In this document: positions 1 to 30,225 of the stretch, one piece after another
How the letters are laid out: each line of letters begins with the position of its first letter
Position numbering within the stretch: the stretch's first letter is position 1
From: Nonomuraea rhodomycinica
GTDB lineage: Bacteria > Actinomycetota > Actinomycetes > Streptosporangiales > Streptosporangiaceae
Direction: 5' to 3'
Assembly: GCF_013363995.1 (NCBI RefSeq)
Contig: NZ_JABWGO010000006.1
Coordinates: 165,481-229,480 of the forward strand
Length of the DNA stretch: 64,000 nt
Program-made: the position numbers and the translations under genes
Notes under the pieces: generated by a model
Database searches by the model: none
Seen by the model: the letters and a program-made list of their open reading frames with translations, nothing else
What the model was told of the DNA's origin: nothing

Positions 1-3000
1 TAGGTTTGGCTGTGGAGGTGGAGCATGATCCGTCCGTGCCGGGTCAGGGTAGTGGGCTGATCTGGTCTGACTATTCGTCGACGACCTACATCTCGGGCAC
101 CAGGTTGACTTCCGGGCTGGTGTCGAGCGGTTCTCTCCGAGACGGTTGGTTGATCCGTTGGCGGGTGCGTGGTCTTACTGCCAGCAACGCCGTCAAGGGT
201 CCCTGGTCCGAATGGCTGTCGGGAAGAGTCGACATCAGCAAGCCCTCGGTGTCGGCGTCAACGGCGCTCGGGACGCTGAGTTCGGGCGTGTGGGTCTTTT
301 CGAGCGATAGGCCGTGGTTCTCGGCGGTGGTTTCCGATCCGGAGCGGCGTGCGGTTGGTTTGGCTGTGGAGGTGGAGCATGATCCGTCCGTGCCGGGTCA
401 GGGTAGTGGGCTGATCTGGTCTGACTATTCGTCGACGACCTACATCTCGGGCACCAGGTTGACTTCCGGGCTGGTGTCGAGCGGTTCTCTCCGAGACGGT
501 TGGTTGATCCGTTGGCGGGTGCGTGGTCTTACTGCCAGCAACGCCGTCAAGGGTCCCTGGTCCGAATGGCAGGCAGGCAAGGTTGACGTCAGCAAGCCCG
601 CTGTTTCCTCCCCTACAGCCCTGGGCACCTTGAGTTCCGGCCTTTGGACCTTTTCGAGCGATAGGCCGTGGTTCTCGGCGGTGGTTTCCGATCCGGAGGG
701 CCGTGGGGTTGGTTTGGCTGTGGAGGTGGAGCATGATCCGTCCGTGCCGGGTCAGGGTAGTGGGCTGATCTGGTCTGACTATTCGTCCACGACCTACACC
801 TCGGGCACCAGGTTGACCTCCGGGCTGGTGTCGAGCGGTTCTCTCCGAGACGGTTGGTTGATCCGCTGGCGGGTGCGTGGTCTTACTGCCAACAACGCCG
901 TCAAGGGGCCCTGGTCCGAATGGCAAATCGGCAAGGTGGAGGCGAACAAACCCGCCGGCACAGGGCTGGGCGCCGTTCCTGCCACGCAGGCGGCGGGCCT
1001 GTGGACCGTCTCCTCGTTGGCGCCCTGGCTCTACACAAAGGTGATCGATCCCGCTGGCGCCGCCTCCTACTTGGCTGCGGAGATCGAGCATGATCCATCA
1101 TTGCCCAGCCAGGGGACCGGGTTGATCTGGGCTGGCAGGGGCACGACCTCGTACGCCTCGGGCTCGAACGCCTGGGTGCAGGTACCCGCGGAGAAGCTGA
1201 ACGATGGCTGGAGGATCCGCTGGCGCGTACGCGGTGTCACCATCAGCGGCACCGAGGGTGCATGGTCCGAGTGGCAGTCCGCGATGGTGGATCTCAAGAA
1301 GCCGACGGTCGACGGGTTGGGGGTAACCCCGGGTACAGAGGGACCTGGCCAGTGGATGTTGTCCTCTGTCACCCCATGGGTGTTCGCGAAGGTCACTGAC
1401 CCGGAGAACCGCGTTTCCTCACTGAGCGTCGAGTTCGAGCACGACCCGTCCGTGACCGATCAGGGCAGTGGGCTGATCTATGCCGGCACGGGGACGAAGC
1501 CCGCAGCGTCGGGTTCGAACGCCTGGGTGCAGGTCCCGGCCGCGAAGCTGAGCGATGGCTGGCTGGTGCGCTGGCGCGTGCAGGGCATTACGTCATCCGG
1601 TATCAAGGGACCTTGGTCGGAGTGGCAATCTGCGAAGGTGGCTCTGAACAAGCCTTCGGTTGAGGGGCCCGGCCTGAGTCCGGGGATTCGTGGCGCGGCG
1701 TCGTGGACGGCGACAACGCTGACTCCATCGCTCTACGCGAAGGCAACCGACCCGGAGAACCGCGCCTCGTTCCTCAGCATTGAGATGGAACACGACCCGG
1801 CCGTCCCAGACCAGGGCACCGGCCAGATCTACGCGGGCACGGCGACGACCTCCTATACCTCGGGCACGAACGCGTGGATGGAGGTGCCTTCAGGCAAGCT
1901 CTCGGACGGGTGGCTGGTTCGCTGGAGAGTGCGGGCCACCACGACCTCGGGCGCCCATAGCCCGTGGACGGACTGGATCTCCGCCAGAGTAAGCGCCCTT
2001 CCGTTCGAAACCTTCTCTCCGGCCAACAACACCCAGGTCGGCACCCTGACACCCACTCTGTCAGCACATGCACGCCCGCTGAACGAAGCGGAAGTCAAGT
2101 ACTGGTTCCAGGTGTGCGCGGGCACACAGCCGAACTGGACGTGGTGCGAGAGCTCAACGTGGGATAAGTCCGGCACCTGGACCGTCCCGGAGAGGAAGCT
2201 GAAGTGGGGAGAGACCTATTGGTGGTACGCCAAGGCGGCGACCGTCAACAACACCGTCACTTCCTCCTGGCGCACCTTCATCCCCACTCCGGAGCAGGGA
2301 ACGCTCAATTCGCTTCTGGGCTCGGGTACTGACGACCGTGACTTCAACCATGTGTCCGGCAATTACACGAACACGGAGACGGATGCATCGGTAGCTGTGG
2401 CTGGTCCACCGCTGTCCGTGACGCGGACGTACAACAGCCTCGACCCCCGGACGGACGGAGTCTTCGGGGCAGGCTGGTCGACGCGCTGGGACATGCGCGT
2501 CGACCGCGAGACCGAGACGACGAACCTTCTGGTGACCTACCCGAGCGGTGAGCAACTGCGCTTCGCCGCCAAAGGCGACGGCACCTACGCCTCGCCCGCG
2601 GGCACGTTTGCCACACTTGCCAGCCTCCCGGAAGGTGGCTGGCGCTTGATGGACAAGTCCGCCACCTCCTACTGGTTCGACGGCAGCGGGCGACTCACCA
2701 AGATTAGTGACCGTCGTAACCGCACCCAGGATCTGACCTATGGTTCCGACGGCAAGCTTGCCAAGGCGACCGGCACTGGTGGCAGATCCCTGAGCTTCAC
2801 CTGGACCGGCAGCCACGTGACGAGCGTGTCCACCGACCCCGTCAACGGTAGCCCGCTCACCTGGACCTACAGCTACGATGGCGACAAGCTGAGCAAGGTC
2901 TGCGCCCCCAACACCGGTCAGGCTTGCACCACCTACACCTACGCCGATGCCTCGCGCTACCGCAGCATCGTCCTGGACGCTGGCCCCAGCGGCTACTGGC

Positions 3001-6000
3001 GGCTGAACGAGACCGCCACCGCCATCGGAACAAAGACCGCCAACTCGGCGGGCTGGAACATCTCCGCCGACCAGGCCGAGCTCACCGGGACCGCGGCCGA
3101 CCTCACGGCCGCCGTCTCCGGACCCCTCAGCGGTACCCCCGATACCGCGATGCGCTTCAAGGGAACGACTAATTCCACCTACGTGGAGCTACCTCCAGCG
3201 ACCATCAGCGGTCAGGGCGGCAATCTCGCGGTAGAGGCGTGGTTCAAGACCACCGGATCTGGCACTGTGATCGGCTACCAGAATTTCACCGGCACCTTCA
3301 GCGGCGGACCGTCCGCCTTCACCCCCGTCGTGTACGTCGGCACGGACGGCAAGCTGCGCGGCCAGTTCTACACCGGCACCCCCGCACCGATCACCTCAGC
3401 CACCCCCGTCAACGACGGAATCTGGCACCACGTGGTCCTTTCGGGCGCGGAGGACACCCAGGCGCTCTTCCTGGACGGCCAAAGCGTCGGCACGCTCGCC
3501 GGGAAGATCACGCATGTGGACCAGTGGGCAACCCGCATCGGCTCCGGCTACGGCTCCTCCGCGTGGCCGGCCACCACCAGCACCATGGCCGTCTTTCCAT
3601 TCGCGGGCGACATCGATGAGGTCGCCGTGTACGGCAAGCCGCTCGGCGCGAAGGTCGTACAGGCACACTACGCCGCCCGCCTGCCGCAGCCGCAGATGAC
3701 CAAGACCGTTGCCCCCTCGGGCCGCGTAGAGGCGGAAAACGCCTACGCGGCCGACGGAGGACGACTGAATACGCATACTGACGCCAATGGCGGTATCTGG
3801 AAGCTCGCGTCACCGGCCTACGTCAAGGAAACAACCGCCCTTACCGTCTCCATGACCACGGTGACTGACCCAGACGGCGGAACACTCACCTACACTGACG
3901 ACGCCCTACGGGGGTACCGGTCCGTCTCGCAAACCGACCAGCTCGGCAAAGTGACCCGGTACACCTATGACACCGGTGGCTTCCCTGCCAAGGTCATCGA
4001 CCCCAACGGAAACGTGGTCGAGACGGCATTCAACTCCCGCGGCAACATGCTCTCCAAGAGGATGTGCAGGACTGCGGACAACTGCTCCAGTGAGTACTAC
4101 AGCTACTTCCTGAACGTCGATGATCCATTCGACCCGCGAAACGACCTGAAGACCGTGTACCGGGACGGCAGATCGGCCTCAGCGACCGATGAGACGTACA
4201 TGGCCTCGTGGACCCTCAGTCCCTATGGCGAGGAGACCAAGCAGACCACCCCGGTGACTCCGGATTTCCCCGAGGGGCGTTCTACGGCGAAGATTTACAC
4301 CGGAGGCACTGAGCCCGCCGTCGGTGGCGGGCTGACGCCGGCGGGCCTACTGAAGTCGGTCAAGGACTACAAGGGCAACGAGACCATCTACGCCTACACC
4401 GCAGCGGGCGACCTGGCGACCGAGACCAGCCCGACCGGGCTGGTCAAGAAGTATGAGCACGACGCGCTGGGCCGGGTCGTCAAGCAGACCGAAATCTCGC
4501 AGGCGTTCCCGAGCGGGGTCACCACGACCATCGCCTACGACGCACTGGGCAAGGTCACCTCACGTACGGGCTCCGGCGTCAAAAACGAGGTCACCGGGGC
4601 CACGCACACCTTGAGGTGGAGCGGCACCTACGACCCCGACGGCCTGCCACTGACAGAGACACAGGAGGACCTGACGGGCGGCGACATCACGCGGACCGTC
4701 ACATACACCTACGACGCCTACGGCCGGACGGAGACTGTCACCGATCCCGAAGGCGGCGTGCAGCGCTACGCCTACGACCACATGGGACAGAAGACCGACT
4801 TCACCGACGAGCGCGGGACGACCTACCACTACGGCTACACGTCGCGCGGTGAGCTGGTGACAAGCACACTGAAGGGCTGGACGGGCAGTCCCATTACGCC
4901 CGACCCGACGGCGGATGTGGTGCTGACCTCTATCGCCTACGACCCGGCCGGGCGGTTGGCATCACAGACGGATGCCATGGGCCGCACAACCGCGTTCACC
5001 TACTACAACGACAACCTGCCAGCCGAGAAGATCGCAAAGGGAGCGCGGCTGAACGGCTCCACCACACCGCGGGATGTGGTGCTGGAGTCCCTCACATACG
5101 ACGCCGCCGGGCATCTCACCCGCCGTACCAGCGACAACGGCGCGTTACGGGTAGACATGAGCCATGATGCGGCGGGACGCGTGATCTCCCAGGCAGTGGA
5201 TCCCGAACGGCTGAACCGAGTCACCACCGCGGCCTACGACGCTAACGACAACCTGGTCAAGATCAAGCAGAGCGCGGGGGGCACCGACCGCGTCGAGATC
5301 ACCGAGTACGCCTATGACGCCGGTGACCGACCTGTGCGCCAGACCGTGCACAACGATGGTCAGGACCTGGTTTCCACGCTCACCGTAGACGACCGCGGCC
5401 TGGTCACGGCTATGACCGACCCGCGAGGCAACGTCCCGAACGCCGATCCTTCGGCCTACACCACCACTATCCACTACAACGCTGCGGGGCTCGCCACGCA
5501 GATCCAGCTCCCGGCGGTGACGGTGGAGCACGCTGGTGCGGTACCGGCCAACCAGCGGCCGACCACGCGCCTGGGATACAACACCTACGGCGAGCAGACA
5601 CATCAGGTCGACGCCGAAGGCAGAACGCTGACCATGGTGCTGGACCGGATCGGCCGAATGGTCGAGCAGATCCTCCCCGTCTACACCCCGCCCGGCGGCC
5701 AGTCGATCACCCCCAAGTCCACCGCCACTTACGATGCCGCGGGGGACCTCATCAGCTTCAGCAACACCCGAGGGCAGATCACCAAGGCGGTCTATGACGC
5801 CCTCGGCCGCAAAGTCCAGGTCACCACGCCCAAGGCGGGCGTTTGGAACTACGGCTACGACCTCCTCGGCGAGACCCTGTGGCAGACCGACCCCATAGGC
5901 GCCCGCTCGGAGTCCACCTACGACGACCTCGGCCGCCAGATCACGCTGACCACGATCGAGCGCAAACCGTCCCAAGCGGCCTATGTCACGAGCATGGAGT

Positions 6001-9000
6001 ACGACGACGCCGATCGGGTTACCAAGACGATCCGACCGACCGGCGATGCCTCCACGCGCACCTACGACGCCACCGGCGCGCTCACCTCTCAGACTGACGC
6101 GCTGGGCAACACCACCACGTTCGCCTACGATCTTGCAGGGCGACCGGTGAAGACGACTAACCCGCTTGGTAACGCCAGCACTGCGACCTACGACCGAGCC
6201 GGACGCAAAACCCAGACCGAGGAACTCGATGCCCAGGGTACGGTCCTGCGGACCTTGAAGTACGGCTACGACTTCGCCGGCAACCCAACCAGCAAGACCT
6301 CGGCCGAGGGGCACACCACCACCCAAGCGTTCGACGCCGGGAACCGTCTGATCGAACGCAAGGAACCAGTATCGGCCACCGAGACGATCACTACGAGCTT
6401 CGGCTACGACGCGGCGGGCGCGCAGACGCGCTCTACCGATGGGCGAGGAAACGCCACCTTCATCACCTACAACAGCCTGGGCCTGACCGAATCGGTGCTC
6501 GAGCCGAGCACAGTCGCGCATCCAAGCCTGGCTGACCGTACCTGGACGACGCTCTACGACGCGGCCGGCAATCCTGTCACCAGCCTGATCCCCGGCGGAG
6601 TGCGGGTGGACCGGGTCTTCGACGAGCTGAGTCGACTGGTCAAGGAGTCGGGTACCGGTGCGGAGGCGGCGACAGAAGACAAGACATTCGGTTACGACCC
6701 CGTCGGCCGGCTGATTGCGGCGAACGACCTGACCTTCACGCTGAACGACCGAGGCCTGCTGCTGAAGAGCGCAGGTCCAGGCGGAGACCTCAACGTCTAC
6801 GCCTACGACGCCAACAACCGGCTCATCCAGCGCGTGGACGCCGCCGGCGCCTCCACCTTCGCCTGGGACGACGCCGACCGCCTTACCCAGGCGGTGGATC
6901 CCGTCAGCGCCACCACCATCGACTACGGCTACGACAAGGCTAACCGCCTGACCTCAATGGCTTACGGCGCCTCCGGAACTCGTCGCAGCTACACCTACGA
7001 CGCGATGAATCGGCTGACCAAGGACCAACTGACCACGTCGGCCGGCGGGGCTATCGCCTCTCTCGAGTACGGCTACGACCGCGACGGCAACATGACTGCC
7101 AAGACCACCACGGGGACGGCAGGCGCGGGCGCCAACACCTACACCTACGACTGGTCCAACCGGCTCACCTCCTGGACATCGCCTGACGGTACGAAGACCG
7201 AGTACGGCTGGGACGCCGCAGGCAACCGCATCAGGGCCGGTGCCAAGACCTACACCTACGATGAACGCAACCGGCTGACCTCGGGCGACGGCCGCACTTA
7301 CACCTACAGCGCGCGCGGAACCCTGAAAGAGGAGGACGGCGGCGCCGTCCGCATGACCAAGTTCGACGCTTTCGACCGCATGGTGCGCGATGGCGCCGTA
7401 ACCTACGACTACGACGCCCTGGACAGGGTCGAGAGCCGCGCCTCAGGTGACAAGGCTACCCGAATGACCTACGACGGGCTCAGCAACAACCTGGTCGCTG
7501 TGACCGACGCGGGCGGCGCTAGGACGGCTTCCTTCGGACGTGACGCACTGGGCCGCACGCTGGGCATCAGCGACGGCGCGGGCGCCCAACTCGCCTTCTC
7601 TGACCAGCATGGAGACCTGATCGGCACGTTCACCACCGACGGCGCCACGCTGGCCGATTCTGTGGCGTACGACCCGTTCGGTGAAGTGACCACGCGCACG
7701 GGGAACGCGCACACGCTGGGCTATCAGGGCGGCTACACCGATCCGGACTCCGGCAAGATCAACATGGCCGCCCGCTGGTATCAGCCCACCACTGGCAGCT
7801 TCGTCTCCCGTGACACCCTCGCCCAGGCCGCTGACCCGTCTGTTCAGCTCAACCGCTACACCTACGCCAACGCCAACCCACTTACCAACACCGACCCTGA
7901 TGGCCACGCCTCCTGCAAGAAGAAGTGCCAGACGGCCAAGCAGAAGGAATACAACGCCTGCGTGAAGAACGGGTTCAAGGGCAAGGGGTGCGCTGACGAC
8001 AAGAAGATTTACATCGCCCAGAAAGGCTTCAAGAAGGATTGCGTCACTGGCTACCACAGTTTCGAAGAGGAGTCAGCCTGTAAGCAGGGTGCGCAGACGT
8101 ACACCCAATGCCGGTTGAGCGGGAAGAGTGCGAAATCTTGCGAGACCAGGGGCGTCAACACCGCGTGCCGGAACTTTGGCGGTGGCGACAGATGCGACCT
8201 CGCGAACCCCGTCTACGACGCCTGCCGCGCCAACAAGGGCACGAAGCGCAGTGTGTGCGTGGAAGGCAACCAGCAGTACATGCTGTGTGATGAGCTTTAT
8301 CCCGTGCAGCGCGGTCAGAACAACGTTTGCTCGGGAGCGGCCAAGGTCTACGAGGGCTGCCGGTCAGCCAGTCCACAGCCAACCACCAGTAGATGTGCGG
8401 CAGTCCGGGAACTCTACGCACAGTGCGCGTATGATGGCTATTCAGCCCAGGGGAGACATGGATACGACCAGTCGGCCGGTACATGCGGGAAGGTCGCCGG
8501 CGACGCCAGCAAATGCGTGCAGCGGGGTGCGCCGGGAGGCGTGTGCTTCTCTGTGGGCATCATCCACCTCAACTGTCTTATGGAGCCGAAAGCCAAAGCC
8601 GCAGGGTGTAATAACTTGGCGGACTTCTTCTACCACTGTGTCGCTCATCCCAAAGCGAATGGCTGTGGAGACAAGCCAGAACATATATGCGAAGACTTTA
8701 AGGACAGGGTTCAGGGCGACATCAGCAAGGGGAAGCGCTGTTCGGACGTCTACTCTCCCGCGCAGGCATGGCTGAAGCGAAAAGGAAAGCTTATGGAGGA
8801 CCCGGACGCCGATTATAGTGCGCCCTGTGCGGCCATCCCTGTAATCGCCGAATTCGTCAAACCCATACAAGGTGCGGCTGCAATCGCGGAAACCGCCTGC
8901 ACCTATCTTGGTTCCATAATGAATCTGACTAACCAAAAAGAAGCGGAGTCTCTTAACCAGCAATGGAAGGAAACCGTCAAGAATAATCCAGGCCAATGGA

Positions 9001-9098
9001 TCGCGGTGAGATTCCCCAATACCCCGCCATACACCCGCGTTGAGGTTGCGTGGGACTTTGAATCCAAGGTCTACGGACATCAGGGCAGATGGGGGTGA
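1..9098 (+). CDS. RHS/YD-repeat surface protein with cysteine-rich C-terminal tail (5' end outside window)
   Basis: The frame is already open at base 3 inside a repeat, so the N-terminus is missing. In order it shows six modules of about 118 residues (to about nt 1990), each with an EHDPS motif and a WRVRG...WSEW motif; a further beta domain (about 2010-2290); an RHS lead-in with VTRTYNSLDPR; a LamG/concanavalin-like domain (about 2960-3670, YWRLNE to DIDEVAVYG); long YD repeats (about 3700-7650, TYDA.GRL type); and the RHS core ending RYTYANANPLTNTDPDG near nt 7905. RHS shells normally encapsulate or deliver the variable C-terminal tail. Here the tail (7911-9095) matches no toxin I know and carries repeated CX9C motifs. 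Secretion and toxin role are inferred from the family; the signal peptide lies outside the window. The next gene overlaps the stop codon. Family call is secure, tail function unknown. Confidence 0.93.
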   Translation, partial: GLAVEVEHDPSVPGQGSGLIWSDYSSTTYISGTRLTSGLVSSGSLRDGWLIRWRVRGLTASNAVKGPWSEWLSGRVDISKPSVSASTALGTLSSGVWVFSSDRPWFSAVVSDPERRAVGLAVEVEHDPSVPGQGSGLIWSDYSSTTYISGTRLTSGLVSSGSLRDGWLIRWRVRGLTASNAVKGPWSEWQAGKVDVSKPAVSSPTALGTLSSGLWTFSSDRPWFSAVVSDPEGRGVGLAVEVEHDPSVPGQGSGLIWSDYSSTTYTSGTRLTSGLVSSGSLRDGWLIRWRVRGLTANNAVKGPWSEWQIGKVEANKPAGTGLGAVPATQAAGLWTVSSLAPWLYTKVIDPAGAASYLAAEIEHDPSLPSQGTGLIWAGRGTTSYASGSNAWVQVPAEKLNDGWRIRWRVRGVTISGTEGAWSEWQSAMVDLKKPTVDGLGVTPGTEGPGQWMLSSVTPWVFAKVTDPENRVSSLSVEFEHDPSVTDQGSGLIYAGTGTKPAASGSNAWVQVPAAKLSDGWLVRWRVQGITSSGIKGPWSEWQSAKVALNKPSVEGPGLSPGIRGAASWTATTLTPSLYAKATDPENRASFLSIEMEHDPAVPDQGTGQIYAGTATTSYTSGTNAWMEVPSGKLSDGWLVRWRVRATTTSGAHSPWTDWISARVSALPFETFSPANNTQVGTLTPTLSAHARPLNEAEVKYWFQVCAGTQPNWTWCESSTWDKSGTWTVPERKLKWGETYWWYAKAATVNNTVTSSWRTFIPTPEQGTLNSLLGSGTDDRDFNHVSGNYTNTETDASVAVAGPPLSVTRTYNSLDPRTDGVFGAGWSTRWDMRVDRETETTNLLVTYPSGEQLRFAAKGDGTYASPAGTFATLASLPEGGWRLMDKSATSYWFDGSGRLTKISDRRNRTQDLTYGSDGKLAKATGTGGRSLSFTWTGSHVTSVSTDPVNGSPLTWTYSYDGDKLSKVCAPNTGQACTTYTYADASRYRSIVLDAGPSGYWRLNETATAIGTKTANSAGWNISADQAELTGTAADLTAAVSGPLSGTPDTAMRFKGTTNSTYVELPPATISGQGGNLAVEAWFKTTGSGTVIGYQNFTGTFSGGPSAFTPVVYVGTDGKLRGQFYTGTPAPITSATPVNDGIWHHVVLSGAEDTQALFLDGQSVGTLAGKITHVDQWATRIGSGYGSSAWPATTSTMAVFPFAGDIDEVAVYGKPLGAKVVQAHYAARLPQPQMTKTVAPSGRVEAENAYAADGGRLNTHTDANGGIWKLASPAYVKETTALTVSMTTVTDPDGGTLTYTDDALRGYRSVSQTDQLGKVTRYTYDTGGFPAKVIDPNGNVVETAFNSRGNMLSKRMCRTADNCSSEYYSYFLNVDDPFDPRNDLKTVYRDGRSASATDETYMASWTLSPYGEETKQTTPVTPDFPEGRSTAKIYTGGTEPAVGGGLTPAGLLKSVKDYKGNETIYAYTAAGDLATETSPTGLVKKYEHDALGRVVKQTEISQAFPSGVTTTIAYDALGKVTSRTGSGVKNEVTGATHTLRWSGTYDPDGLPLTETQEDLTGGDITRTVTYTYDAYGRTETVTDPEGGVQRYAYDHMGQKTDFTDERGTTYHYGYTSRGELVTSTLKGWTGSPITPDPTADVVLTSIAYDPAGRLASQTDAMGRTTAFTYYNDNLPAEKIAKGARLNGSTTPRDVVLESLTYDAAGHLTRRTSDNGALRVDMSHDAAGRVISQAVDPERLNRVTTAAYDANDNLVKIKQSAGGTDRVEITEYAYDAGDRPVRQTVHNDGQDLVSTLTVDDRGLVTAMTDPRGNVPNADPSAYTTTIHYNAAGLATQIQLPAVTVEHAGAVPANQRPTTRLGYNTYGEQTHQVDAEGRTLTMVLDRIGRMVEQILPVYTPPGGQSITPKSTATYDAAGDLISFSNTRGQITKAVYDALGRKVQVTTPKAGVWNYGYDLLGETLWQTDPIGARSESTYDDLGRQITLTTIERKPSQAAYVTSMEYDDADRVTKTIRPTGDASTRTYDATGALTSQTDALGNTTTFAYDLAGRPVKTTNPLGNASTATYDRAGRKTQTEELDAQGTVLRTLKYGYDFAGNPTSKTSAEGHTTTQAFDAGNRLIERKEPVSATETITTSFGYDAAGAQTRSTDGRGNATFITYNSLGLTESVLEPSTVAHPSLADRTWTTLYDAAGNPVTSLIPGGVRVDRVFDELSRLVKESGTGAEAATEDKTFGYDPVGRLIAANDLTFTLNDRGLLLKSAGPGGDLNVYAYDANNRLIQRVDAAGASTFAWDDADRLTQAVDPVSATTIDYGYDKANRLTSMAYGASGTRRSYTYDAMNRLTKDQLTTSAGGAIASLEYGYDRDGNMTAKTTTGTAGAGANTYTYDWSNRLTSWTSPDGTKTEYGWDAAGNRIRAGAKTYTYDERNRLTSGDGRTYTYSARGTLKEEDGGAVRMTKFDAFDRMVRDGAVTYDYDALDRVESRASGDKATRMTYDGLSNNLVAVTDAGGARTASFGRDALGRTLGISDGAGAQLAFSDQHGDLIGTFTTDGATLADSVAYDPFGEVTTRTGNAHTLGYQGGYTDPDSGKINMAARWYQPTTGSFVSRDTLAQAADPSVQLNRYTYANANPLTNTDPDGHASCKKKCQTAKQKEYNACVKNGFKGKGCADDKKIYIAQKGFKKDCVTGYHSFEEESACKQGAQTYTQCRLSGKSAKSCETRGVNTACRNFGGGDRCDLANPVYDACRANKGTKRSVCVEGNQQYMLCDELYPVQRGQNNVCSGAAKVYEGCRSASPQPTTSRCAAVRELYAQCAYDGYSAQGRHGYDQSAGTCGKVAGDASKCVQRGAPGGVCFSVGIIHLNCLMEPKAKAAGCNNLADFFYHCVAHPKANGCGDKPEHICEDFKDRVQGDISKGKRCSDVYSPAQAWLKRKGKLMEDPDADYSAPCAAIPVIAEFVKPIQGAAAIAETACTYLGSIMNLTNQKEAESLNQQWKETVKNNPGQWIAVRFPNTPPYTRVEVAWDFESKVYGHQGRWG
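3..930 (+). repeat. Tandem 354-bp near-identical coding repeats
   Basis: The same block starts at 3, 357 and 711, giving a period of exactly 354 bp (118 codons). Copies 1 and 2 are almost identical over their first 200 bases or more, and copy 3 differs at only a few positions until about 930. Three more modules downstream (EHDPS motifs near 1090, 1440 and 1790) are clearly diverged. The pattern implies recent duplication or gene conversion at the 5' side, and more copies probably lie left of the window. Because the period is a multiple of three, unequal crossing-over would keep the frame. Confidence 0.9.
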
Positions 9099-10432
9099 CG
9101 GCGATCCCGCGCCCTCGCGCATGGGCGCTCGTTGGCGCCATGGTTGCCCTGATCGCCATCGCAGCCGCGGCCACTGGCATGGCCGTGCACCAGCACCTCA
9201 CCGCGCGGGAGGCCGAGCGTGTTGCCGAGGCTCGCGAATTGGCGCTTCTAGGTGTGGCGTCCCGGGTAACGGAGCCGTATGCGGCCGTCGCCTTAGGCGT
9301 CGCCGCCGTGAGGATCCACGCCGATGACCAGACCCGTACTGCGCTTGTTGACACCATGGTCTCCGAACGCCAAGCAATATTTCGTGGCACCGATATCGTC
9401 GCGGCCATAGCGATAAGCGCTGACGGGCGGACCGCCCTCGTCGCCGACCAAAACCAGGGCGTCGCCCTGTGGACGTTGTCGCCTTCCGGGCGCCCCGACG
9501 GCCGGCTCGATGCGATACGCGCCGGCGTGCTCGAAAGCCAGGGCGGCGAAGTGCGGGCGGTGGCGTTGAGCCTCGACGGGCGCGTCGCATTGGTCAGTGC
9601 TGGCGAGGGCTTCGCGACCCTGTGGAACACGACCGATCGCGAGCACCCCGCAAGACTGGCCACTCTGGAAGGCGGCTCAGTACGCCACGTGGCCCTCAGC
9701 GGCAATGGGAAGACGGCGTTGATCGGGCACGATGACGGGAACGTCGCGGTGTGGGATCTCGCCCAGCCCAGCCGCCCAGTCAGGGTGGCGGCCTTGGCCA
9801 CTCACCGCTCAGTCTTGCGGAGTTTGGGATTGAGCGCCGATGGACGGATCGCAGTGACCGTGAGGGAACGGGCGTCGACGGTGTGGGACTTGTCTGACTT
9901 GGCACGGCCGATCCAGGGTGGTGGGCTGGACACGGCCGACACCGCGTCGGCGGCTGCAGCGCTGACCGCCGACGGCCGCACCGCCCTAGTCGGGAGCGCG
10001 CTGTGGGACGTGAGCAATCCCACGCGCCCTCAGCGCCTCACCTCGCTGCCAGATGTCGAGCACATGGTGGTCAGTGCGGCGCTGACCTCGAATGGCGGCT
10101 TCGCCATGACCGGCGAGGCCGGCGGCAGGACGGTCGTGTGGGATTTGCGGGACCGCGCTCGACCGTCCCGGATAGCCGTACTCAAAGCACCTGTCACCCA
10201 GGTGGACGAGGTCGCGCTGAATGCGGATGGGAACATTGCCCTGATCGGCACTCCTAAGTGGGGGGTCTTCTCCTGGGACCTGACCGGCCTCAGCGGAGAT
10301 CCCTTCCATGACCTGTGCGGAGGCGGCAGGACTGGACTATCGATCACTCGCGCCTGGTGGAGTCACTTCACCAAGAGCAAGCCGTGGCCGGACTCGTTCG
10401 GCGACCGGGACTCGTTCGAACCGTGTGCTTGA
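9089..10432 (+). CDS. Membrane-anchored WD40 beta-propeller protein
   Basis: A protein of 447 residues with one predicted membrane segment near the N-terminus (about residues 11-32, LVGAMVALIAIAAAATG) followed by repeated WD40 blades. Blade signatures recur as VALSxDGRxALV...LWdl and VWDLAQPSRPVRVAAL, in the style common in actinomycete WD40 proteins. The ATG at 9089 overlaps the upstream RHS stop (9096-9098); a GTG at 9095 in the same frame also overlaps it, so translation is probably coupled. WD40 propellers are interaction scaffolds. The tight coupling makes it a candidate partner, anchor or cognate immunity protein for the RHS product, but that is inference from position only. No enzymatic motif is seen. 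Confidence 0.8.
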   Translation: MGVTAIPRPRAWALVGAMVALIAIAAAATGMAVHQHLTAREAERVAEARELALLGVASRVTEPYAAVALGVAAVRIHADDQTRTALVDTMVSERQAIFRGTDIVAAIAISADGRTALVADQNQGVALWTLSPSGRPDGRLDAIRAGVLESQGGEVRAVALSLDGRVALVSAGEGFATLWNTTDREHPARLATLEGGSVRHVALSGNGKTALIGHDDGNVAVWDLAQPSRPVRVAALATHRSVLRSLGLSADGRIAVTVRERASTVWDLSDLARPIQGGGLDTADTASAAAALTADGRTALVGSALWDVSNPTRPQRLTSLPDVEHMVVSAALTSNGGFAMTGEAGGRTVVWDLRDRARPSRIAVLKAPVTQVDEVALNADGNIALIGTPKWGVFSWDLTGLSGDPFHDLCGGGRTGLSITRAWWSHFTKSKPWPDSFGDRDSFEPCA

Positions 10433-10833: not shown

Positions 10834-11341
10834 AGAGGCCGGTACTGCGCTCTTACTAGGACGGACCTGCAGGAACATTCTACGGAGCACTTGCCCTTCG
10901 CTTGATCATCCCGCGCATGTCCCGCGCACGTCGGAGGGCCGCTTGCGAGGTCCAAGGCTTCTCGCGATACATCACAGCCAACGTGGCAACGACTCGGGAG
11001 CGCCTGATGTTGGCCATGGAAGTATGTGCATACCATTACCTAACCTGCGGCGCAGCGCATCGGTGCGACGCTGGACGGTCTGGATTGGAGTGCATATGTC
11101 CATGGCGCCAGGTTCAGTGCTGCTTCCCCCGGCACATCTGTCTGTTCGTGTGCCATGGCATGACACGGATTGGACCGGTCGGGTCTGCGTGGATCCCGCG
11201 CTGAACAACTCGTGCACGATGTTGACGAACATTAAGAAACGTAAGCAGGTAGAGCGAGAAGAGGAGGTTCGAGGGCAAAGTTGGAGGAACGGGGCACCTG
11301 AGCCGGCTGTACCGCCATGCGTCACGGAGCGCGGCGGGTTC
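10834..11341. other. Intergenic stretch, left end of island
   Basis: No recognisable gene. At about 10901-10925 a short motif (GATCATCCCGCGCATGTCCC) resembles segments at 10651-10675 and 43157-43177, so parts of the boundary repeat recur a third time here. The helicase frame is open from 10943, but residues before 11342 look non-coding. Confidence 0.45.
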
Positions 11342-14300
11342 ATGCGAAACTCAGAGTTCTCAGTTCTGAGGACCCACCCTTACGCAAAGCAGCGGTCGCA
11401 CAGTCATTTGGCGGAAACGTCGCTCAGAATGCCTGCATACAGTCTAGAGGCTCTGCCTTTCGGTTGGTTGATGCGTGAAAATGCAGCAAAAATGCAGGCG
11501 GAATGGGGCATATCCTATGATGCAATGGCCGAGGAGGATGCTGACAAGCACATTGGACAGGCTCGCACTTGGGTGCAAGATGGTCGCAACCAGCTCGCGC
11601 TGCTTGACTCCTTTTTCTCAGCTCTCCGCCCAGGCAGCTCGTTGGCCCTTATCTACGCCAAGGATATTCCCCTACTGGAACAGCGTGTTCCTGGAAGCCG
11701 GATCCTCATCGGCGCAGGTATGGTCACTCATGTTGGCAACCATGTCCCGTGGGAAAAATCTCGGCCCGGGCCGCTTGACCCGGTCATGTGGGAGCGGTCA
11801 GTCAGCCACTCGATTCGCGCGCCCTCGTTCAGTGATGGATTCCTCCTCCCATATCAGCAGCTCATGGCCAATCCCGACCTTGTTGGGGAGGACCTGACGC
11901 CGTTCATCGCTCGCACGGCTCCAGAGCTCTTCAACGAGTTCTCCTACGTGTCGGAGCTTGTGAGTCACGACAGTGCCTTGGCGGCTCTGGTGGAGATCGC
12001 AAGGGTCGTGGAACGGCTCACCGGCGTGGCCAACGGCCCTTGGGATGTTGTCACCTCATGGATATCCCAGCGTATGGCTGACATCTGGATCCATCGAGGG
12101 GCGTATCCAGGGCTCGGGTCGGCGTTGCTGGCGGCGGGGATTCCGACGGGGGCTCTGATCGCCCACCGTGTATTCGCCTCCGATCCTAACGCGGAGGCTA
12201 ATCCGTGGGCTGCGCTGGAGAAAGCTATGTCCGAGGCTGCACAGGGCCGGGGAGCGGCTCGGGGGCTGGCGCAAAGGATGGTCCAGAAGATATGGAAGGG
12301 TCTGCTGGCTGATCCCGAGCGCTTTGAACTGCTGCGCCTGCTCGCGCGCTTCTCACTCACAGCTGATCAGTCCAAGAGAATCTTTGATCGGGAGGCACGT
12401 AAAAGGAGCGGCATAACGGTTACCGACAGCGAACTGCTTGAAAACCCCTATCGGATTTACGAGTTGGACCGTGGCAGCAAGGACTCCATCAGCCTGCACT
12501 CCATCGACCGCGGACTGTTCCCGCGAGACGCGGGAGCGGCTGCGGTTCTACTCCGCAGTCCCCTTCCTGACCCGGTCGAGGAGGCCATCGATGACCGGCG
12601 GATCAGAGCCGCATGTGTCTCGATTCTGGAGCGTGCGGCTGAGGATGGTCATACCTTGCTTGACGGGTCGGGGTTGCGGGACCGGCTAGGCGCCATGTCT
12701 CTAGAACCGGTGTGTGACCCAACCAGTGATGCCTTCCGCATTGTGGCCGACGAGTTCGCACCCGTCCTTCGTTCCACGGCTCTGGCTGGCAACAAAGGCC
12801 AGGGCTGGCAGCTTGAGCGTCTTGCGGCCGCGAGTGACCTCATCACCGACGAGGTCCTTCACCGTGTTGAGGCTGGACCGATAGACGTGACGGGTGACTG
12901 GCGAGCGTTGATCGACGCTGTGATAAAGGGAGCCGCGCACCCTGATGACGCGGATGAGCATGAGGCTCGTCAGGAGAAGGCCCGTGCGCTTGAGACGCTG
13001 ATGCGGTCGCGCATAAGCGTTCTGGTCGGGCCGGCGGGCACAGGCAAGACCACCATGCTGCAAGCGCTGTGCTCCCACCCGACGGTCTCCGGGCGGGTCC
13101 TGTTGCTCGCGCCGACCGGGAAGGCGCGGGTGCAGCTGGGAGAGAAAGCTGGCTCACGTGCCAGGACGCTGGCGCAGTATCTACGTCCGTTCAACCGATG
13201 GAATGCACAGACCAATACGTACGACATACACCCCAACGGCAGGAAGGATAACAACGCCTACACGGCCGTGATCGTGGACGAGGCGTCCATGCTTCCCGAG
13301 GAGGCGCTTGCCGCGCTGATTGCCACATTAGGGCATGTGGACCGCCTTGTTCTCTGCGGCGACCACCGGCAGCTTCCGCCGATCGGCGCCGGACGCCCGT
13401 TCGCTGACCTTGTCCAATATCTTCGGGACTCTGAGGGCGCCGAGAACGGGAACGAGACAGCTCTGTCTGGAGGCGGCTTGGCTGAGCTGACCGTCGCTCG
13501 AAGGCAGAAAGACGAGAACGCTCCTCATGGGTCGCAGGGTGGTCGGGACGATCTGGCCGTGGCATCGTGGTTCTCCGTCGATGGTTCACAGGTGGCAGCG
13601 GACGAGGCAATGGCTCGCGTGCTGGCTGGAGAGGGCGATGGGACGCTGGAGATCCGGCGGTGGACTACCGAGACGGATCTGCACAAATCGATCGTGGAAT
13701 GCCTTGTGGGAATGCCCGAGCTGAGCCTGGAGGACAAGAACGCCTATGCTCTATGTCGGTCCTTTGGCGCAGTGATCGAAGAAAGGTTTCCCCGCTTCCC
13801 TGATGGCGGACGAGGCGCGGAGAACTGGCAGTTGCTCTCGCCTGTCCGTGCGCAGCAAGGGGGAATCGTCGGTCTCAACCGGCTCATCAGGCGTGTCTGG
13901 CGCGAGGGGGGCCAACGCCGTGCCCGAAGCAACAACAACTTGCCAAAGCCCATGGGAGCGGACCAGATACTCCTCTTCGACAAAGTGATGATCGGTTACA
14001 ACCGGACTCATGATGATGTTGCGCGCACAGGCGTCCGGGAAAGGATCAAGGGGGATCTTGCCAACGGCGAGATTGGTCTCGTTGTAAACTCGGCAGGACG
14101 AGTGGGCCAGAAGCCCACAGGTATCAAGGTGGAACTGGCAACGCAGGAGGATCTTGTTTTCACCTTCTGGGAGGGCTTGCTCAACGGTGAGGACAAGGAC
14201 CTAGGGCGGGAGATCCTGGAGCTCGCGTACGCGATCACGGTTCACAAGTCGCAAGGGTCCCAGTTCAAGACCACCTTCGTTATTATCCCCAACCCCTGCC

Positions 14301-14893
14301 CCTTGTTGTCGCCTGAGCTGCTCTATACAGCTTTGACCCGTCACCGCGGGCGTTGCGTCCTGTTCATTCAGGGCGATCCGGCCGAGCTGCGGAGAGTTGC
14401 CGGACCACTGCAGTCAGACACAGGGCGGAGACTGACCCGCCTGTTCCACGCGCCCGATCCGTTCAAGGCACCCAACGGACGGACCTTGGACGGAGCGCAT
14501 ATCCACTTGACCGTCAGGGGGGAACTGGTCACCTCCAAGTCGGAGGTGATCGTCGCGAACATCCTTGCGAACCTAGACGTGCCCTACGTTTACGAACAAC
14601 CCCTGGTCATGGCAGACGCCTCACGAAGGCTTCCGGACTTCACCGTTTCTCGAGCGGGACGCCCGCCCATCTATTGGGAGCATCTCGGCATGCTGGATAA
14701 GAGCAGCTATCGGGCTAACTGGGAGGCCAAGCGTCGGTGGTACGCCGACCACGGGATCAAACCGTGGACCGATGGAGGTGGTCCAGAGGGAACCCTCGTG
14801 TGGTCCACCGAGGGCGTTGGTCTTGAAGGGATCAACGCCCAGGAGATAGAGGCTCTGGCGCGACAGGTTTTCGAGATCCCACCATCGAATTGA
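11342..14893 (+). CDS. RecD-like SF1 helicase with C-terminal nuclease-like domain
   Basis: A protein of 1183 residues from the ATG at 11342; the frame is open further upstream but that part lacks protein-like composition, and the ribosome site is weak either way. Helicase motifs: Walker A GPAGTGKT (about residue 562), Walker B IVDEAS (about 644), motif III LCGDHRQLPP (about 672), VHKSQGSQF (about 961) and YTALTRHR (about 996), an arrangement like RecD2/TraA superfamily 1B enzymes. The N-terminal 450 residues form an unrecognised domain with an IYAKDIPLLEQR motif. The last 160 residues contain SEVIVANIL, RRLPDF and YWEHLG, which resembles a variant PD-(D/E)XK nuclease core fused to helicases. 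Likely DNA unwinding and cleavage. It sits in a defence island, two genes from DISARM and convergent with it. Confidence 0.82.
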   Translation: MRNSEFSVLRTHPYAKQRSHSHLAETSLRMPAYSLEALPFGWLMRENAAKMQAEWGISYDAMAEEDADKHIGQARTWVQDGRNQLALLDSFFSALRPGSSLALIYAKDIPLLEQRVPGSRILIGAGMVTHVGNHVPWEKSRPGPLDPVMWERSVSHSIRAPSFSDGFLLPYQQLMANPDLVGEDLTPFIARTAPELFNEFSYVSELVSHDSALAALVEIARVVERLTGVANGPWDVVTSWISQRMADIWIHRGAYPGLGSALLAAGIPTGALIAHRVFASDPNAEANPWAALEKAMSEAAQGRGAARGLAQRMVQKIWKGLLADPERFELLRLLARFSLTADQSKRIFDREARKRSGITVTDSELLENPYRIYELDRGSKDSISLHSIDRGLFPRDAGAAAVLLRSPLPDPVEEAIDDRRIRAACVSILERAAEDGHTLLDGSGLRDRLGAMSLEPVCDPTSDAFRIVADEFAPVLRSTALAGNKGQGWQLERLAAASDLITDEVLHRVEAGPIDVTGDWRALIDAVIKGAAHPDDADEHEARQEKARALETLMRSRISVLVGPAGTGKTTMLQALCSHPTVSGRVLLLAPTGKARVQLGEKAGSRARTLAQYLRPFNRWNAQTNTYDIHPNGRKDNNAYTAVIVDEASMLPEEALAALIATLGHVDRLVLCGDHRQLPPIGAGRPFADLVQYLRDSEGAENGNETALSGGGLAELTVARRQKDENAPHGSQGGRDDLAVASWFSVDGSQVAADEAMARVLAGEGDGTLEIRRWTTETDLHKSIVECLVGMPELSLEDKNAYALCRSFGAVIEERFPRFPDGGRGAENWQLLSPVRAQQGGIVGLNRLIRRVWREGGQRRARSNNNLPKPMGADQILLFDKVMIGYNRTHDDVARTGVRERIKGDLANGEIGLVVNSAGRVGQKPTGIKVELATQEDLVFTFWEGLLNGEDKDLGREILELAYAITVHKSQGSQFKTTFVIIPNPCPLLSPELLYTALTRHRGRCVLFIQGDPAELRRVAGPLQSDTGRRLTRLFHAPDPFKAPNGRTLDGAHIHLTVRGELVTSKSEVIVANILANLDVPYVYEQPLVMADASRRLPDFTVSRAGRPPIYWEHLGMLDKSSYRANWEAKRRWYADHGIKPWTDGGGPEGTLVWSTEGVGLEGINAQEIEALARQVFEIPPSN

Positions 14894-16457: not shown

Positions 16458-17198
16458 TCAGGGTAAGTTAATCCGCTCAAAGAGAAAATCCTCCGCTCGA
16501 AATAGCTCGCGTTCCACAGTTTCGGCGAGGTTCCGGTTGTCGATGAGAACACCGAACTCGATGTTGGAGTATTCGGCGCTCCATGAGAAGTTGGCACTGG
16601 TCGTAAGCAGGAACCGATGGTCGACGATGATGAACTTGGCGTGGTTGCGTACGTAGCCGCCGTCGAACTCCTTGGTGCTGAACACGAGCCCGGGCCGCAG
16701 GTGTGCAGCGACCTGGGCTGTCGTCGGTCCCCGGCGGAGCCCCTGCTTGGCTGCCTGGGTATCGAGATAGACCCGCAGGCTGATCTCGGGCCGCTGAGCC
16801 GCCCGGCGGAGTGCTTCCCACAGTCGGGAAGAGCGCTGGAAGTTGAAGGTCGAACAGGTGACGGACTGCCGGGCGCCGTCGACTAAGTGGGTAGCCGAGC
16901 TGGTGAGCGGTCCCGAACGGGCCAAGTGACCCGGCATCGTCCACACCGGGGCGACGCTGGTGGCCGCCGACCGGGCGCCCTCGATGGCCCGTAGCGCAGC
17001 TACCGCCGAATCCGGGCCGATCCGCTGCAGAAGAGCCCGGATCTCAGCGCGGTGGGCCGGCGGGAGCACACGGAGCGCGGCGGTCATGGTGTCGCCATCA
17101 TTCAGCCGGTCGGCGATGCCTTTGGCCTCGGTGGCGGTGAGCTTTTGTCCCAAGTTCCGCGCCGCGCCACCGTCAGTACCCACGGCCGAAGAAGCCAA
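16458..17198 (-). CDS. drmC: DISARM component DrmC, phospholipase D-like protein
   Basis: A protein of 246 residues with one clear PLD/HKD motif near residues 188-197 (HAKFIIVD) followed by TTSANFSWSAEY; the N-terminal part is a helical region rich in Ala. Start is TTG 17198 with GGAAG upstream; it overlaps the end of drmB by 26 bp. DrmC is the last gene of the DISARM core set (drmA, drmB, drmC). In the founding work drmC could be dispensable for protection, and its PLD fold suggests nuclease activity. One HKD motif means a dimer would be needed for a complete active site, as in Nuc-type PLD enzymes. Confidence 0.88.
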   Translation of the reverse strand: MASSAVGTDGGAARNLGQKLTATEAKGIADRLNDGDTMTAALRVLPPAHRAEIRALLQRIGPDSAVAALRAIEGARSAATSVAPVWTMPGHLARSGPLTSSATHLVDGARQSVTCSTFNFQRSSRLWEALRRAAQRPEISLRVYLDTQAAKQGLRRGPTTAQVAAHLRPGLVFSTKEFDGGYVRNHAKFIIVDHRFLLTTSANFSWSAEYSNIEFGVLIDNRNLAETVERELFRAEDFLFERINLP

Positions 17199-19197
17199 GG
17201 TCGCTTCCCCGCAAGTTCACAAGGAACCTACGGTCGAGGAAGCGGTTGGCCCGTTCGCAGGAGGTCTCCGATGCCATCACGCAGCAGTGGCAGGCAGCTC
17301 CGTGTAGGAAGTCTTCCGGGTCCTGGGGAGTGCGCGTGGCGCAGATGGGGTCAGAGGAGCACCGGGTGGCCCGAAACAGTGCGTCGCGGACGACGCGAGC
17401 GAGCCGGGCCGGTTCGCTCAACTGGACCAGGCCGCCCAGAGTTCCATCGCTGTCGGACGCCGTTGTGCAGATCAGCAAGCCGGCGGCAGCGGCGCGACCT
17501 TCGGCTTCCGGCCAGGCGTATAGCCGCTCGCTGAGGCTGGCGGCCGAGTAGCCACAGGTGAGGGCCAGCTCGCGGATGAGGACGTGGGCCAGGGTATGGA
17601 CCAGCCAGTATCGCGGCGGTTTCAATCGGCTGTCCGGATCGATGTCCTCCGCGGTTTCGGAGAATCGGCGGTAGAAGTTCCGGCGATGGGCTTCCCGGTG
17701 CGCTGCCCACTCGGCGGCCTTGTAGATCTGCTCCTCCCATCCGGCGACCGCCGCCTCGTCGAGCTGGAGGAAGATGCCTTCACCGCGGTCTTCGGTGGCG
17801 ACGGTCCATTCCGGGCGGGGTGCGCGGGTGAGTGGGACAAGCCTGCGGGGCAAGTCCCCAACGCGATCCATTGCGTCGATCCGGGTGAAGCCGACGAGGG
17901 CGTTGACCTTGCGGAGTCGTTCGACGGCGAGGACGCGGGTGATCTCAAGCCGCAGCTCGGGGTCGAGGTCTCGTCTGGAGAGTGCCAGGCCGCTGACGGG
18001 GTCCTCATGGCCCGCTCCAAGCGGGTCCTTCTGAAGGTAGCGCCATTCAGGGACGAGAAGGTCCACCGGGTCCCAGGTCCGGAGCTGCTCCTCCTGCTGC
18101 TCGGCAGTGGCGGGCGGTTCTGTGGCCAGGGCGACGACCTGTGCGAGCATGTCGTCGTTGAGATCGGTGACGTCGACCTTTCCGTCGAGGACATCGCGGA
18201 GAATATCGAGGTTGTCGCGATATTTCAGAAGCTTGTCGCCGAGGGCGATACGGACTCGGTCGGCGAGATCGCCTTCCTGCTCTTCCGGGGATTCCGGCAT
18301 GACGATGATCGACTGTGTGGCGGGGAACCACAAGTTGGAGGCACCGACGAGAAGCAGGCGTGTCTCATTGCGGCAGCCGCCCGGCTGGAAAGCATCGAGA
18401 TGCGGGTGGCGTCCGCGGCACCTCGGCAAGTTCAACGCCCCCTGTTCGCCCTGAGCCTCGTTCATGGGACGGCTCAGCCCACAGGAGGCGCACCGGATGG
18501 TCGCGGTGGCACCCCGACCCGCCGTCCGATCGATCATCTTTAGCGCGGGGAACTCCGCCTCGGCACACGGCTTGCCGCGATGTACCCACAGGTCATAAGG
18601 GAATTCATCCAGGTGCCCGTCTACGCAGGCGAGCAGATAACGGGCCGGTACAGCCGGCCGCCGCGTCGCCTGGCGGCTCTTGTCACCCTTGCGACCGGTG
18701 CATTTGCCGTGTTCGAAGCAGGCCAGGTCGGTCCGGTAGGGGTGGGTGTTGGTGTAGGAAAATGAGGTCAGCGGTGCGAGCATGTCACAGCCGGTGCACC
18801 GCAGCCACTGTGGGAAGACGCGGGCTGGCACGCCCAGGTCGTTGCCCTCGTTGGACATGCTGAGCTTCTTGGGCTGCCATGGGAAAGGCCGGAGCTGCAC
18901 GTTGGGAGAACGCAACAGCATGCGCACCACCTCGCGCAGCCGCGGGGCGCGGATCTCCGGGATTCCGTCTCGCCGTCTCCAGATCCGATCCCAGTCGTCC
19001 AACCCGGTAGGCATAATCGTGAACTGCGGCAAGTCCATGATCGAGCCTGGCCCATAGGTGTATATCAGCGAGGAGGGTCGCCCCGAGCCGACCTTGGCCC
19101 GGTTGTGCTTGATCCCCTTCTCTTTCTCCCGCTCCGCGTCGCCGAGCGGATCGACCGCAGAGGCAGCGTCGTAGATGAATGAGGTGTTAGTCGTCAT
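17173..19197 (-). CDS. drmB: DISARM component DrmB (DUF1998 protein)
   Basis: A protein of 674 residues from ATG 19197 (MTTNTSFIYD) with GGAGA just upstream, overlapping drmA by 11 bp; a longer open frame to 19302 is antisense-like and rejected. Cysteine clusters suggest zinc binding: CTGCDM and CFEHGKC in the N-terminal half, CASCG and CRGRH...GGC centrally, and CSSDPIC...ACHCC...SC in the C-terminal DUF1998 domain. In DISARM, DrmB binds DrmA and helps it recognise and load on DNA. Gene order and overlaps place it in the five-gene DISARM operon. A second, isolated DUF1998 C-terminus lies at 37150-37422. Confidence 0.92.
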   Translation of the reverse strand: MTTNTSFIYDAASAVDPLGDAEREKEKGIKHNRAKVGSGRPSSLIYTYGPGSIMDLPQFTIMPTGLDDWDRIWRRRDGIPEIRAPRLREVVRMLLRSPNVQLRPFPWQPKKLSMSNEGNDLGVPARVFPQWLRCTGCDMLAPLTSFSYTNTHPYRTDLACFEHGKCTGRKGDKSRQATRRPAVPARYLLACVDGHLDEFPYDLWVHRGKPCAEAEFPALKMIDRTAGRGATATIRCASCGLSRPMNEAQGEQGALNLPRCRGRHPHLDAFQPGGCRNETRLLLVGASNLWFPATQSIIVMPESPEEQEGDLADRVRIALGDKLLKYRDNLDILRDVLDGKVDVTDLNDDMLAQVVALATEPPATAEQQEEQLRTWDPVDLLVPEWRYLQKDPLGAGHEDPVSGLALSRRDLDPELRLEITRVLAVERLRKVNALVGFTRIDAMDRVGDLPRRLVPLTRAPRPEWTVATEDRGEGIFLQLDEAAVAGWEEQIYKAAEWAAHREAHRRNFYRRFSETAEDIDPDSRLKPPRYWLVHTLAHVLIRELALTCGYSAASLSERLYAWPEAEGRAAAAGLLICTTASDSDGTLGGLVQLSEPARLARVVRDALFRATRCSSDPICATRTPQDPEDFLHGAACHCCVMASETSCERANRFLDRRFLVNLRGSDLGFFGRGY

Positions 19198-30137: not shown

Positions 30138-30225
30138 GTCCGTCTCCTTGTCCCCGTGGGCCACCCGGTGCGCCTATCTTGGCGATCCTTTTCGAAAATC
30201 GCAAGACGCTTGGTAGTCTGCCGAT
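30138..30225. promoter_or_regulatory. Shared divergent promoter/operator of DISARM and the XRE-ImmA/IrrE gene
   Basis: The 88-bp gap contains a perfect palindrome TTTTCGAAAA (30189-30198), flanked by GCGAT and TCGC. On the plus strand a -10-like TAGTCT (30214-30219) ends six bases before GTG 30226, a leaderless arrangement. On the minus strand TTGCGA (complement of 30199-30204) and AGATAG (complement near 30174-30179) could be the -35 and -10 of the drmD promoter, which would put the palindrome between them. Binding by the adjacent XRE protein is an inference. Confidence 0.5.

Follow-up and report, generated by a model that had tools for sequence, protein, structure and literature searches.

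A tandem array of predicted CX9C helices in the tails of Rhs proteins from one actinomycete family and its recurrence in probably membrane-anchored neighbouring proteins

We analysed a 64,000-nucleotide stretch of the Nonomuraea rhodomycinica genome (contig NZ_JABWGO010000006.1, positions 165,481 to 229,480; hereafter the window), which opens with the 3' part of an RHS gene whose product ends in a cysteine-rich tail. The RHS frame is open from position 3 on the forward strand and runs to a stop codon at 9096-9098 (3..9098). In the genome the gene has an open frame of 3,084 residues, and its apparent start (an ATG at L029:3946; labels of this form denote loci) lies about 1.5 kb upstream of the window. 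Judged by eye, the N-terminus of the protein resembles a signal peptide. The protein contains repeated immunoglobulin (Ig)-like units matching PF25788 below cut-off; a run of N, an assembly gap at L029 5386-5481, falls within the repeated Ig-like part of its gene and abuts the window start. Within the window, all on the forward strand, DUF6531 (PF20148; 2346..2564, E 4.1e-15) marks the start of the RHS region and is followed by a concanavalin A-like Laminin_G_3 domain (3168..3659, E 4.5e-15), RHS repeats (PF05593, E 2.5e-87) and a full-length match to the RHS repeat-associated core TIGR03696 (7668..7907, E 5.7e-19). The core match ends at nucleotide 7907, the last of the DPDGH junction (7893-7907) with which the tail starts. 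The protein thus carries the RHS/YD repeats and RHS-associated core of an Rhs polymorphic toxin; a junction of the form D[PL]xGH was also present in related tails with an intact core, with a variable C-terminal part after it. The next gene (9089..10432, forward strand), a candidate for the cognate immunity gene, has a start codon that precedes the RHS stop and encodes an N-terminal transmembrane (TM) segment (nucleotides 9113-9193) followed by a WD40 propeller (TM-WD40).

The tail after the core has 401 residues and 28 Cys, compared with 6 Cys in the preceding 2,630 residues of the window. It contains 11 exact CX9C spacings, at 7959-7991, 8079-8111, 8109-8141, 8193-8225, 8256-8288, 8328-8360, 8394-8426, 8484-8516, 8514-8546, 8544-8576 and 8607-8639. 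In the register of the family alignment, those at 7959, 8109 and 8514 are loops that are nine residues long by coincidence, and the true units are eight exact CX9C and one CX8C: 8079-8111, 8139-8168 (CX8C), 8193-8225, 8256-8288, 8328-8360, 8394-8426, 8484-8516, 8544-8576 and 8607-8639. The whole array of tandem CX9C helices spans 7914..8690, with less regular Cys before 8079 and after 8639, and is followed by a C-terminal module (8742..9095) that is weakly hydrophobic here. A preliminary description, made from the sequence of the window, had reported seven exact CX9C pairs; the array is real and the number was understated. That description correctly gave Tyr at position 7 in five pairs, while its linkers of 10-30 residues have to be revised to gaps between units of 8-19 from 8079 on. 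When the tail was shuffled 20,000 times as far as its last Cys, CX9C occurred 2.2 times on average with a maximum of 9 (observed 11), and CX6YX2C 0.10 times with a maximum of 2 (observed 5). Conservation in relatives is stronger evidence than these shuffles that the pattern is not due to chance. The window tail showed no Pfam or NCBIfam domain, its sole Pfam row being NDUF_B7 at E 0.14, below cut-off, and no PADLOC or PHROGs match.

The preliminary description had proposed a search for the array in other RHS tails, and it was present in 19 related tails. These counts omit the truncated L024, the fragment L025 and the duplicates L019, L021 and L082. By eye, the alignment sorted the tails into four divergent groups, of which the window belongs to group 1. 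Unit number was 9-12 in 18 of the 19 tails and 6 in the path through L023, where a Cys has been lost. The gap within a unit was exactly nine in 170/191 units, a figure biased upward because the unit path was picked for the largest number of nine-residue gaps, whereas gaps between units ranged from 7 to 24 and equalled nine in 45/172. Tyr stood at position 7 in 116 of the 170 exact units. No CXXC occurred among the Cys gaps of the 19 tails, and the unit had no His-rich column. Residues other than Cys were conserved as well, and the dN/dS (ratio of nonsynonymous to synonymous substitution rates) of the tails was 0.12 and 0.22, which indicates purifying selection. Tails and the array-bearing partner proteins described below are related by descent and hence do not count as independent rows.

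Among 297 genomes of the family, a protein search found array matches, whether tails or partners, in 11. By profile they were found in 5/394 genomes of a sample of the class, in 15/54 genomes of the window's genus and in 7/15 of a second genus, and a wider profile matched 30 of 345 genomes of the order, all from one family and spread over five of its genera. All these counts include genomes with a partner-type array alone. Named relatives among the matches listed were Microbispora amethystogenes and Nonomuraea sp. G32 (at least two loci). The single plasmid place was in Nonomuraea gerenzanensis, on an 11.85 Mb record classed as plasmid by PLSDB; together these names point to Nonomuraea and Microbispora as the two main genera. 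Phages gave no array relative, and two scans of viral contigs gave none. The scanned tails gave nothing above cut-off in Pfam or NCBIfam; against nine tails and partners, PADLOC and PHROGs gave only weak matches, for three of them (E 0.0047-0.045, none better than about E 0.005). In the literature on twin CX9C or CHCH proteins in bacteria and on Rhs proteins with cysteine or immunity, titles and the openings of abstracts named no such tails, with subscription papers mostly outside this scope. The first 300,000 of the 357,715 characters of PMC3482391 likewise do not mention 'CHCH', 'cysteine-rich' or 'disulfide'.

The best clue to function came from the neighbouring genes of relatives, in which the array recurs in a form predicted to be membrane-anchored. 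An open reading frame (ORF) with an N-terminal hydrophobic segment directly followed 19 of 20 tails, L024 included (14/15 plus 5/5), compared with 12 of 153 controls, the controls being the longest non-overlapping ORFs of at least 300 residues rather than curated genes. Signal peptides and TM segments were judged throughout by eye or with Kyte-Doolittle windows rather than with a trained predictor. By sequence, these neighbours are candidates for the adjacent immunity gene of an Rhs toxin. In 8 of the 20 cases the neighbour was itself a homologous Cys array, corresponding to the N-terminal half of the tail array (L018, L020, L038, L039 and L069) or to the C-terminal half (L022, L023 and L024). 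In seven it was a small TM protein, 62-98 residues long and carrying one hydrophobic segment or two (L071, L072, L073, L078, L157, L158 and L159), in three a TM-WD40 protein (the window, L076 and L126), in one a 396-residue multi-TM protein (L160), and one tail had none (L077).

Among the array-type partner ORFs, orphans included, 17/18 had an N-terminal hydrophobic segment and five a lipobox, which predicts that they are anchored in the membrane. In blastp, N-half partners were about 29-37% identical to group-1 tails across residues 16-200 or so, and C-half partners matched tails more weakly over the second half; hhalign confirmed the homology for both halves (E 4e-12 and 1e-25). Five pairs of partner arrays had a dN/dS of 0.24-0.29, among them two cognate-orphan pairs (0.26 and 0.28), so these arrays, as judged from their codons, are under purifying selection. 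Together with the signal-like N-terminus of the RHS protein, the partners' hydrophobic segments agree with the preliminary description in placing the repeat outside the cytoplasm. At the second RHS locus of the window's own genome (L024 6018-7522, forward strand) the core is degraded, the tail fragment is open and the partner gene is intact. L026 has likewise kept its partner beside a tail remnant, and eight other orphan partners had no tail remnant within 4 kb upstream. The orphan array proteins L079, L080, L081 and L162-L169 lie in open frames of about 320-570 residues, several ending in ETxYExM, and no Rhs gene with an array tail was seen in the sequence retrieved around them; L079-L081 carry a lipobox and arrays related to the L076-type array.

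Relatives of the TM-WD40 gene were found at 21 places in 16 of the 54 genomes, and 20 TM-WD40 loci were examined (18 relatives, the window and L076). An array tail or its remnant lay directly upstream in the window, L076, L126, L121, L115 and L089, and L120 lay within an array locus. On this association the TM-WD40 gene of the window is likely, but not certain, to be the partner of the tail. The gene at L089 (2484-4126, reverse strand) is a second TM-WD40 gene of the window's own genome and is preceded by a short remnant of an L076-type array tail.

The structure of the window tail was predicted with AlphaFold2 (AF2) on a five-sequence alignment. Mean predicted local distance difference test (pLDDT) was 63.5 and predicted template modelling score (pTM) 0.62. 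Residues 11-180 mostly reached a pLDDT of 70-92 and formed successive helices with one Cys pair per confident helix, so that the CX9C motifs are predicted to lie within helices, as they do in CHCH proteins and as the preliminary description had anticipated. Of the outcomes that would have refuted the preliminary description, neither a predicted beta fold nor a match to a known cysteine-rich toxin family turned up. With the whole model, Foldseek returned nothing at E<=0.001 (best E 0.066, with many designed helical proteins among the best 50 rows) and VIA-align reached a best Z of 6.0. No CHCH protein stood among the fold-search rows listed for the whole model; CHCH chains are short, and this absence is therefore no evidence against a CHCH likeness.

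Sequence profiles pointed to the mitochondrial proteins. A profile of eight tails matched 21 PDB chains at E<=10, of which 20 were of the NDUFA8, NDUFB7 or NDUFS5 kind, subunits of complex I (best E 2.2e-4). A profile of 14 tails gave 61 matches; the best 16 were mitochondrial, 13 of them named NDUFA8 (best E 4.9e-5) and one CHCHD5. Among the best 60 of the 61, seven were plainly unrelated, all at E 0.066 or worse, including a designed-looking protein, chemotaxis receptors and ADP-ribosyl cyclase. In the 14-tail alignment, NDUFA8 also has an aromatic residue at position 7 (CEQANNEFMLC, CHEEFTQYATC). A control profile in which the Cys columns were kept and the other residues permuted (one seed, seven of the eight rows) matched nothing in PDB at E<=10. 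The profile of six C-half partners matched 23 chains at E<=1, all mitochondrial and mostly mS37/CHCHD1 and NDUFS5 (best E 0.0054). In Pfam, 11 tails and partners stayed below cut-off for CHCH (best 14.1 bits against 27.2; best E 0.054), COX17 (19.9 bits, E 9.7e-4, against 24.9) and NDUF_B7 (14.9 against 26).

The number and phase of the Cys bear on how they may be paired. An even Cys count was the rule (18/19 tails, 15/18 partner arrays), and a lone Cys stood at both the start and the end of the array in the same proportions (18/19 and 15/18). Pairing across every loop left no Cys over in 18/19 tails and 15/18 partners, whereas pairing the units into hairpins left two to four over in all 19 tails. 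The two schemes tied in two partners (L022 and L080), with one Cys over. Six C-half partners share exactly 12 invariant Cys, arranged as a lone Cys, five units and a lone Cys. For this book-keeping the register was chosen by score and arrays were cut at the first gap of at least 25; where the unit number is even, both lone end Cys could also pair with each other. Cys number and phase in tails and partners favour one disulfide across every loop over CHCH hairpins, and from these sequences we infer an array of loop-stapled helices. CHCH hairpins in the literal sense were set aside for these reasons of parity and phase. The preliminary description had linked the tail to the CHCH fold: the best PDB profile matches are indeed CHCH proteins, whereas the hairpin itself is not supported (Pfam E 0.054; Cys number and phase). 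The tail is CHCH-like in its unit and probably unlike CHCH in its disulfide pattern.

The C-terminal module measured 84-121 residues in the 19 tails. In the eight tails of groups 2 and 3 it was strongly TM-like, with a maximum Kyte-Doolittle value (KD19) of 1.93-2.29, and seven of these eight go with small TM proteins. In group 1 the module contains an invariant PG pair.

We estimate a probability of about one half that the protein is a secreted polymorphic Rhs toxin whose tail, the toxic part, acts at the envelope, with a membrane-held immunity built partly from the toxin's own array. In this mechanism the tail would fold as a disulfide-stapled row of antiparallel helices. Each unit would measure about 20 residues, its two Cys ten positions apart and its position 7 usually occupied by Tyr. 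The C-terminal module behind the array is in many relatives a hydrophobic segment that may insert into membranes. Once exported, and probably cut at the DPxGH junction, the array would work outside the membrane of the target cell, where it would bind that membrane or a surface partner and bring the C-terminal module to the target membrane. The producer would be protected by a membrane-anchored protein with its domain facing outward: an array copy, a small TM protein or, in the window, the TM-WD40 protein. The array-type antidote would be a shorter paralogous Cys array matching one half of the toxin array. An envelope toxin with immunity on the outside is suggested by the hydrophobic anchors of the neighbours and by the hydrophobic C-terminal modules. 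The homology of partner arrays to the tails, the purifying selection on them and the intact partner gene beside the degraded second RHS copy also count in favour. A new toxin type, as the preliminary description had proposed, is probable; the tails appear to form a toxin-tail family that is new to the libraries searched and sits on a known Rhs chassis.

Several observations weigh against this mechanism. The modules of the window's own group are weakly hydrophobic (maximum KD19 0.61-1.63; window 1.34; below 1.3 in 5/8 group-1 tails), so that membrane insertion is at most a possibility there, and the link between module and partner is imperfect, since TM-WD40 accompanies the modules of L126 (2.03) and L076 (1.73), and an array partner that of L022 (1.63). 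The window itself showed no array-type partner gene, and 13 of the 20 TM-WD40 loci had no array in about 5-6 kb upstream (0.9 kb for L116), which makes the TM-WD40 gene an uncertain partner. The genome of the window gave no VKOR or DsbB match, only DsbA-like proteins (four matches). AF2 modelled the later half of the array and the C-terminus poorly, the Foldseek and VIA-align searches named no function, and the N-half partner profile matched no PDB chain at E<=1. An AF2 model of a four-helix piece had a pLDDT of 52 and was not used.

An unlikely alternative, though the likeliest of those considered, is that the array is a homotypic binding domain of an anchor or adhesin: anchored arrays would hold the Rhs protein on its producer or bind the arrays of sister cells, and no immunity would be involved. 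The N-terminally anchored partners homologous to the tail would suit such a role, as would the Laminin_G_3 domain and repeated Ig-like units of the RHS protein and the array proteins seen without an array-tailed Rhs gene (L079-L081, L162-L169). However, tails of groups 2 and 3 carry the same array, but their small TM neighbours offer no array for it to pair with, and partners persist beside degraded tails (L024, L026). More doubtful still is an array with no binding role that merely keeps a C-terminal enzyme or pore module at a distance or shields it. The unit number varies among tails while a C-terminal module of 84-121 residues stands behind the array in all 19, as a passive linker would predict, but array-type partners copy the array and not the module, and the conservation of residues beyond Cys argues for more than spacing.

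We consider it improbable that each pair of units is a true two-disulfide CHCH hairpin related by descent to the mitochondrial proteins. Exact CX9C, the aromatic residue at position 7 shared with NDUFA8, the predicted helices and the profile matches speak for it; the lone end Cys and often odd unit number, which leave Cys unpaired in every tail, the Pfam CHCH scores below cut-off and the restriction of the array to one bacterial family among the genomes searched speak against it. A metal-binding or redox-active array is very improbable: 28 Cys in 401 residues and the binding of copper by COX17, a CHCH protein (PMC7909247, in its accessible text), would allow it, but Cys regularly ten apart and in even number fit structural disulfides, and CXXC gaps and a His-rich column were lacking.

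Returning to the envelope toxin, we put forward only tentatively a more specific form of it. The array would be a solenoid of single CX9C helices stapled across their loops, serving both as the business end of the toxin and, at half length and tethered to the membrane, as an antidote that works by mimicry; CHCH hairpins would be a short relative of this solenoid by descent or convergence. If the envelope toxin is real, three things are gained: a toxin-tail family without a Pfam or NCBIfam match above cut-off among the tails scanned, a bacterial counterpart of the mitochondrial CX9C motif and, probably, a kind of immunity conferred by a half-length, tethered copy of the toxin. One could then test whether CX9C helices have more than one origin and by what route an actinomycete lacking a recognisable VKOR or DsbB oxidises a domain of 28 Cys.

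Beside the RHS and WD40 genes of the window lies the gene of a RecD-like helicase (10943-14893, forward strand), which matches PADLOC candidate PDC-S68 over almost the whole length (E 0). On the reverse strand, PADLOC models point to a DISARM-type set of genes at 17173-30164, made up of DrmD (26949-30164), DrmMI (22903-26952), DrmA (19187-22906) and DrmB (17173-19302). The gene at 30226-31329 (forward strand) matches capP (E 5.5e-26) and, weakly and at its N-terminus, capH (E 1.3e-4).

The CX9C motif is best known from mitochondria. The tails resemble mitochondrial CHCH proteins (NDUFA8, CHCHD5, NDUFB7, COA6 and mS37) in having CX9C within a predicted helix, in a probably oxidising compartment, in the aromatic residue at position 7 of NDUFA8 and in their profile match. 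They differ in their long tandem rows (9-12 units in 18/19 tails), the lone Cys at both ends, the Cys book-keeping for loop staples, the fusion to an Rhs core and the Pfam CHCH scores below cut-off. The available text of PMC7909247 defines CHCH or twin CX9C proteins as mitochondrial intermembrane-space proteins imported by Mia40, an identity that does not fit a bacterial gene with a signal-like N-terminus, and PMC7050145, in the part available, lists NDUFA8, NDUFB7 and NDUFS5 among the eukaryote-specific subunits.

Among Rhs/YD toxins, the bacterial Teneurin-like Rhs proteins are described in the accessible part of PMC13018210 as cleaved at a site in the RHS core and accompanied by adjacent immunity genes. 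The proteins studied here share with these toxins the RHS repeats, the core, a C-terminus that varies after a conserved junction and a small downstream gene, and differ in the Cys-array tail and in their neighbours, which have hydrophobic N-termini and in one group are homologous to the toxin itself. Tse5 of Pseudomonas aeruginosa, a pore-forming Rhs toxin with type VI delivery (PMC10684867), likewise delivers a membrane-active C-terminal fragment, which is only a possibility here; the abstract mentions no Cys array for Tse5. TelC of Streptococcus intermedius is a lipid II phosphatase exported by a type VII system (PMC6193138). According to the accessible text of that source, the soluble domain of TipC-type immunity proteins consists of three helices and a seven-stranded sheet and is no copy of the toxin, in contrast to the array-type partners. 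The TelC-TipC pair resembles the proposed system in its wall-zone toxin, in its paralogous immunity genes and in an immunity protein with an N-terminal TM segment and an outward-facing domain.
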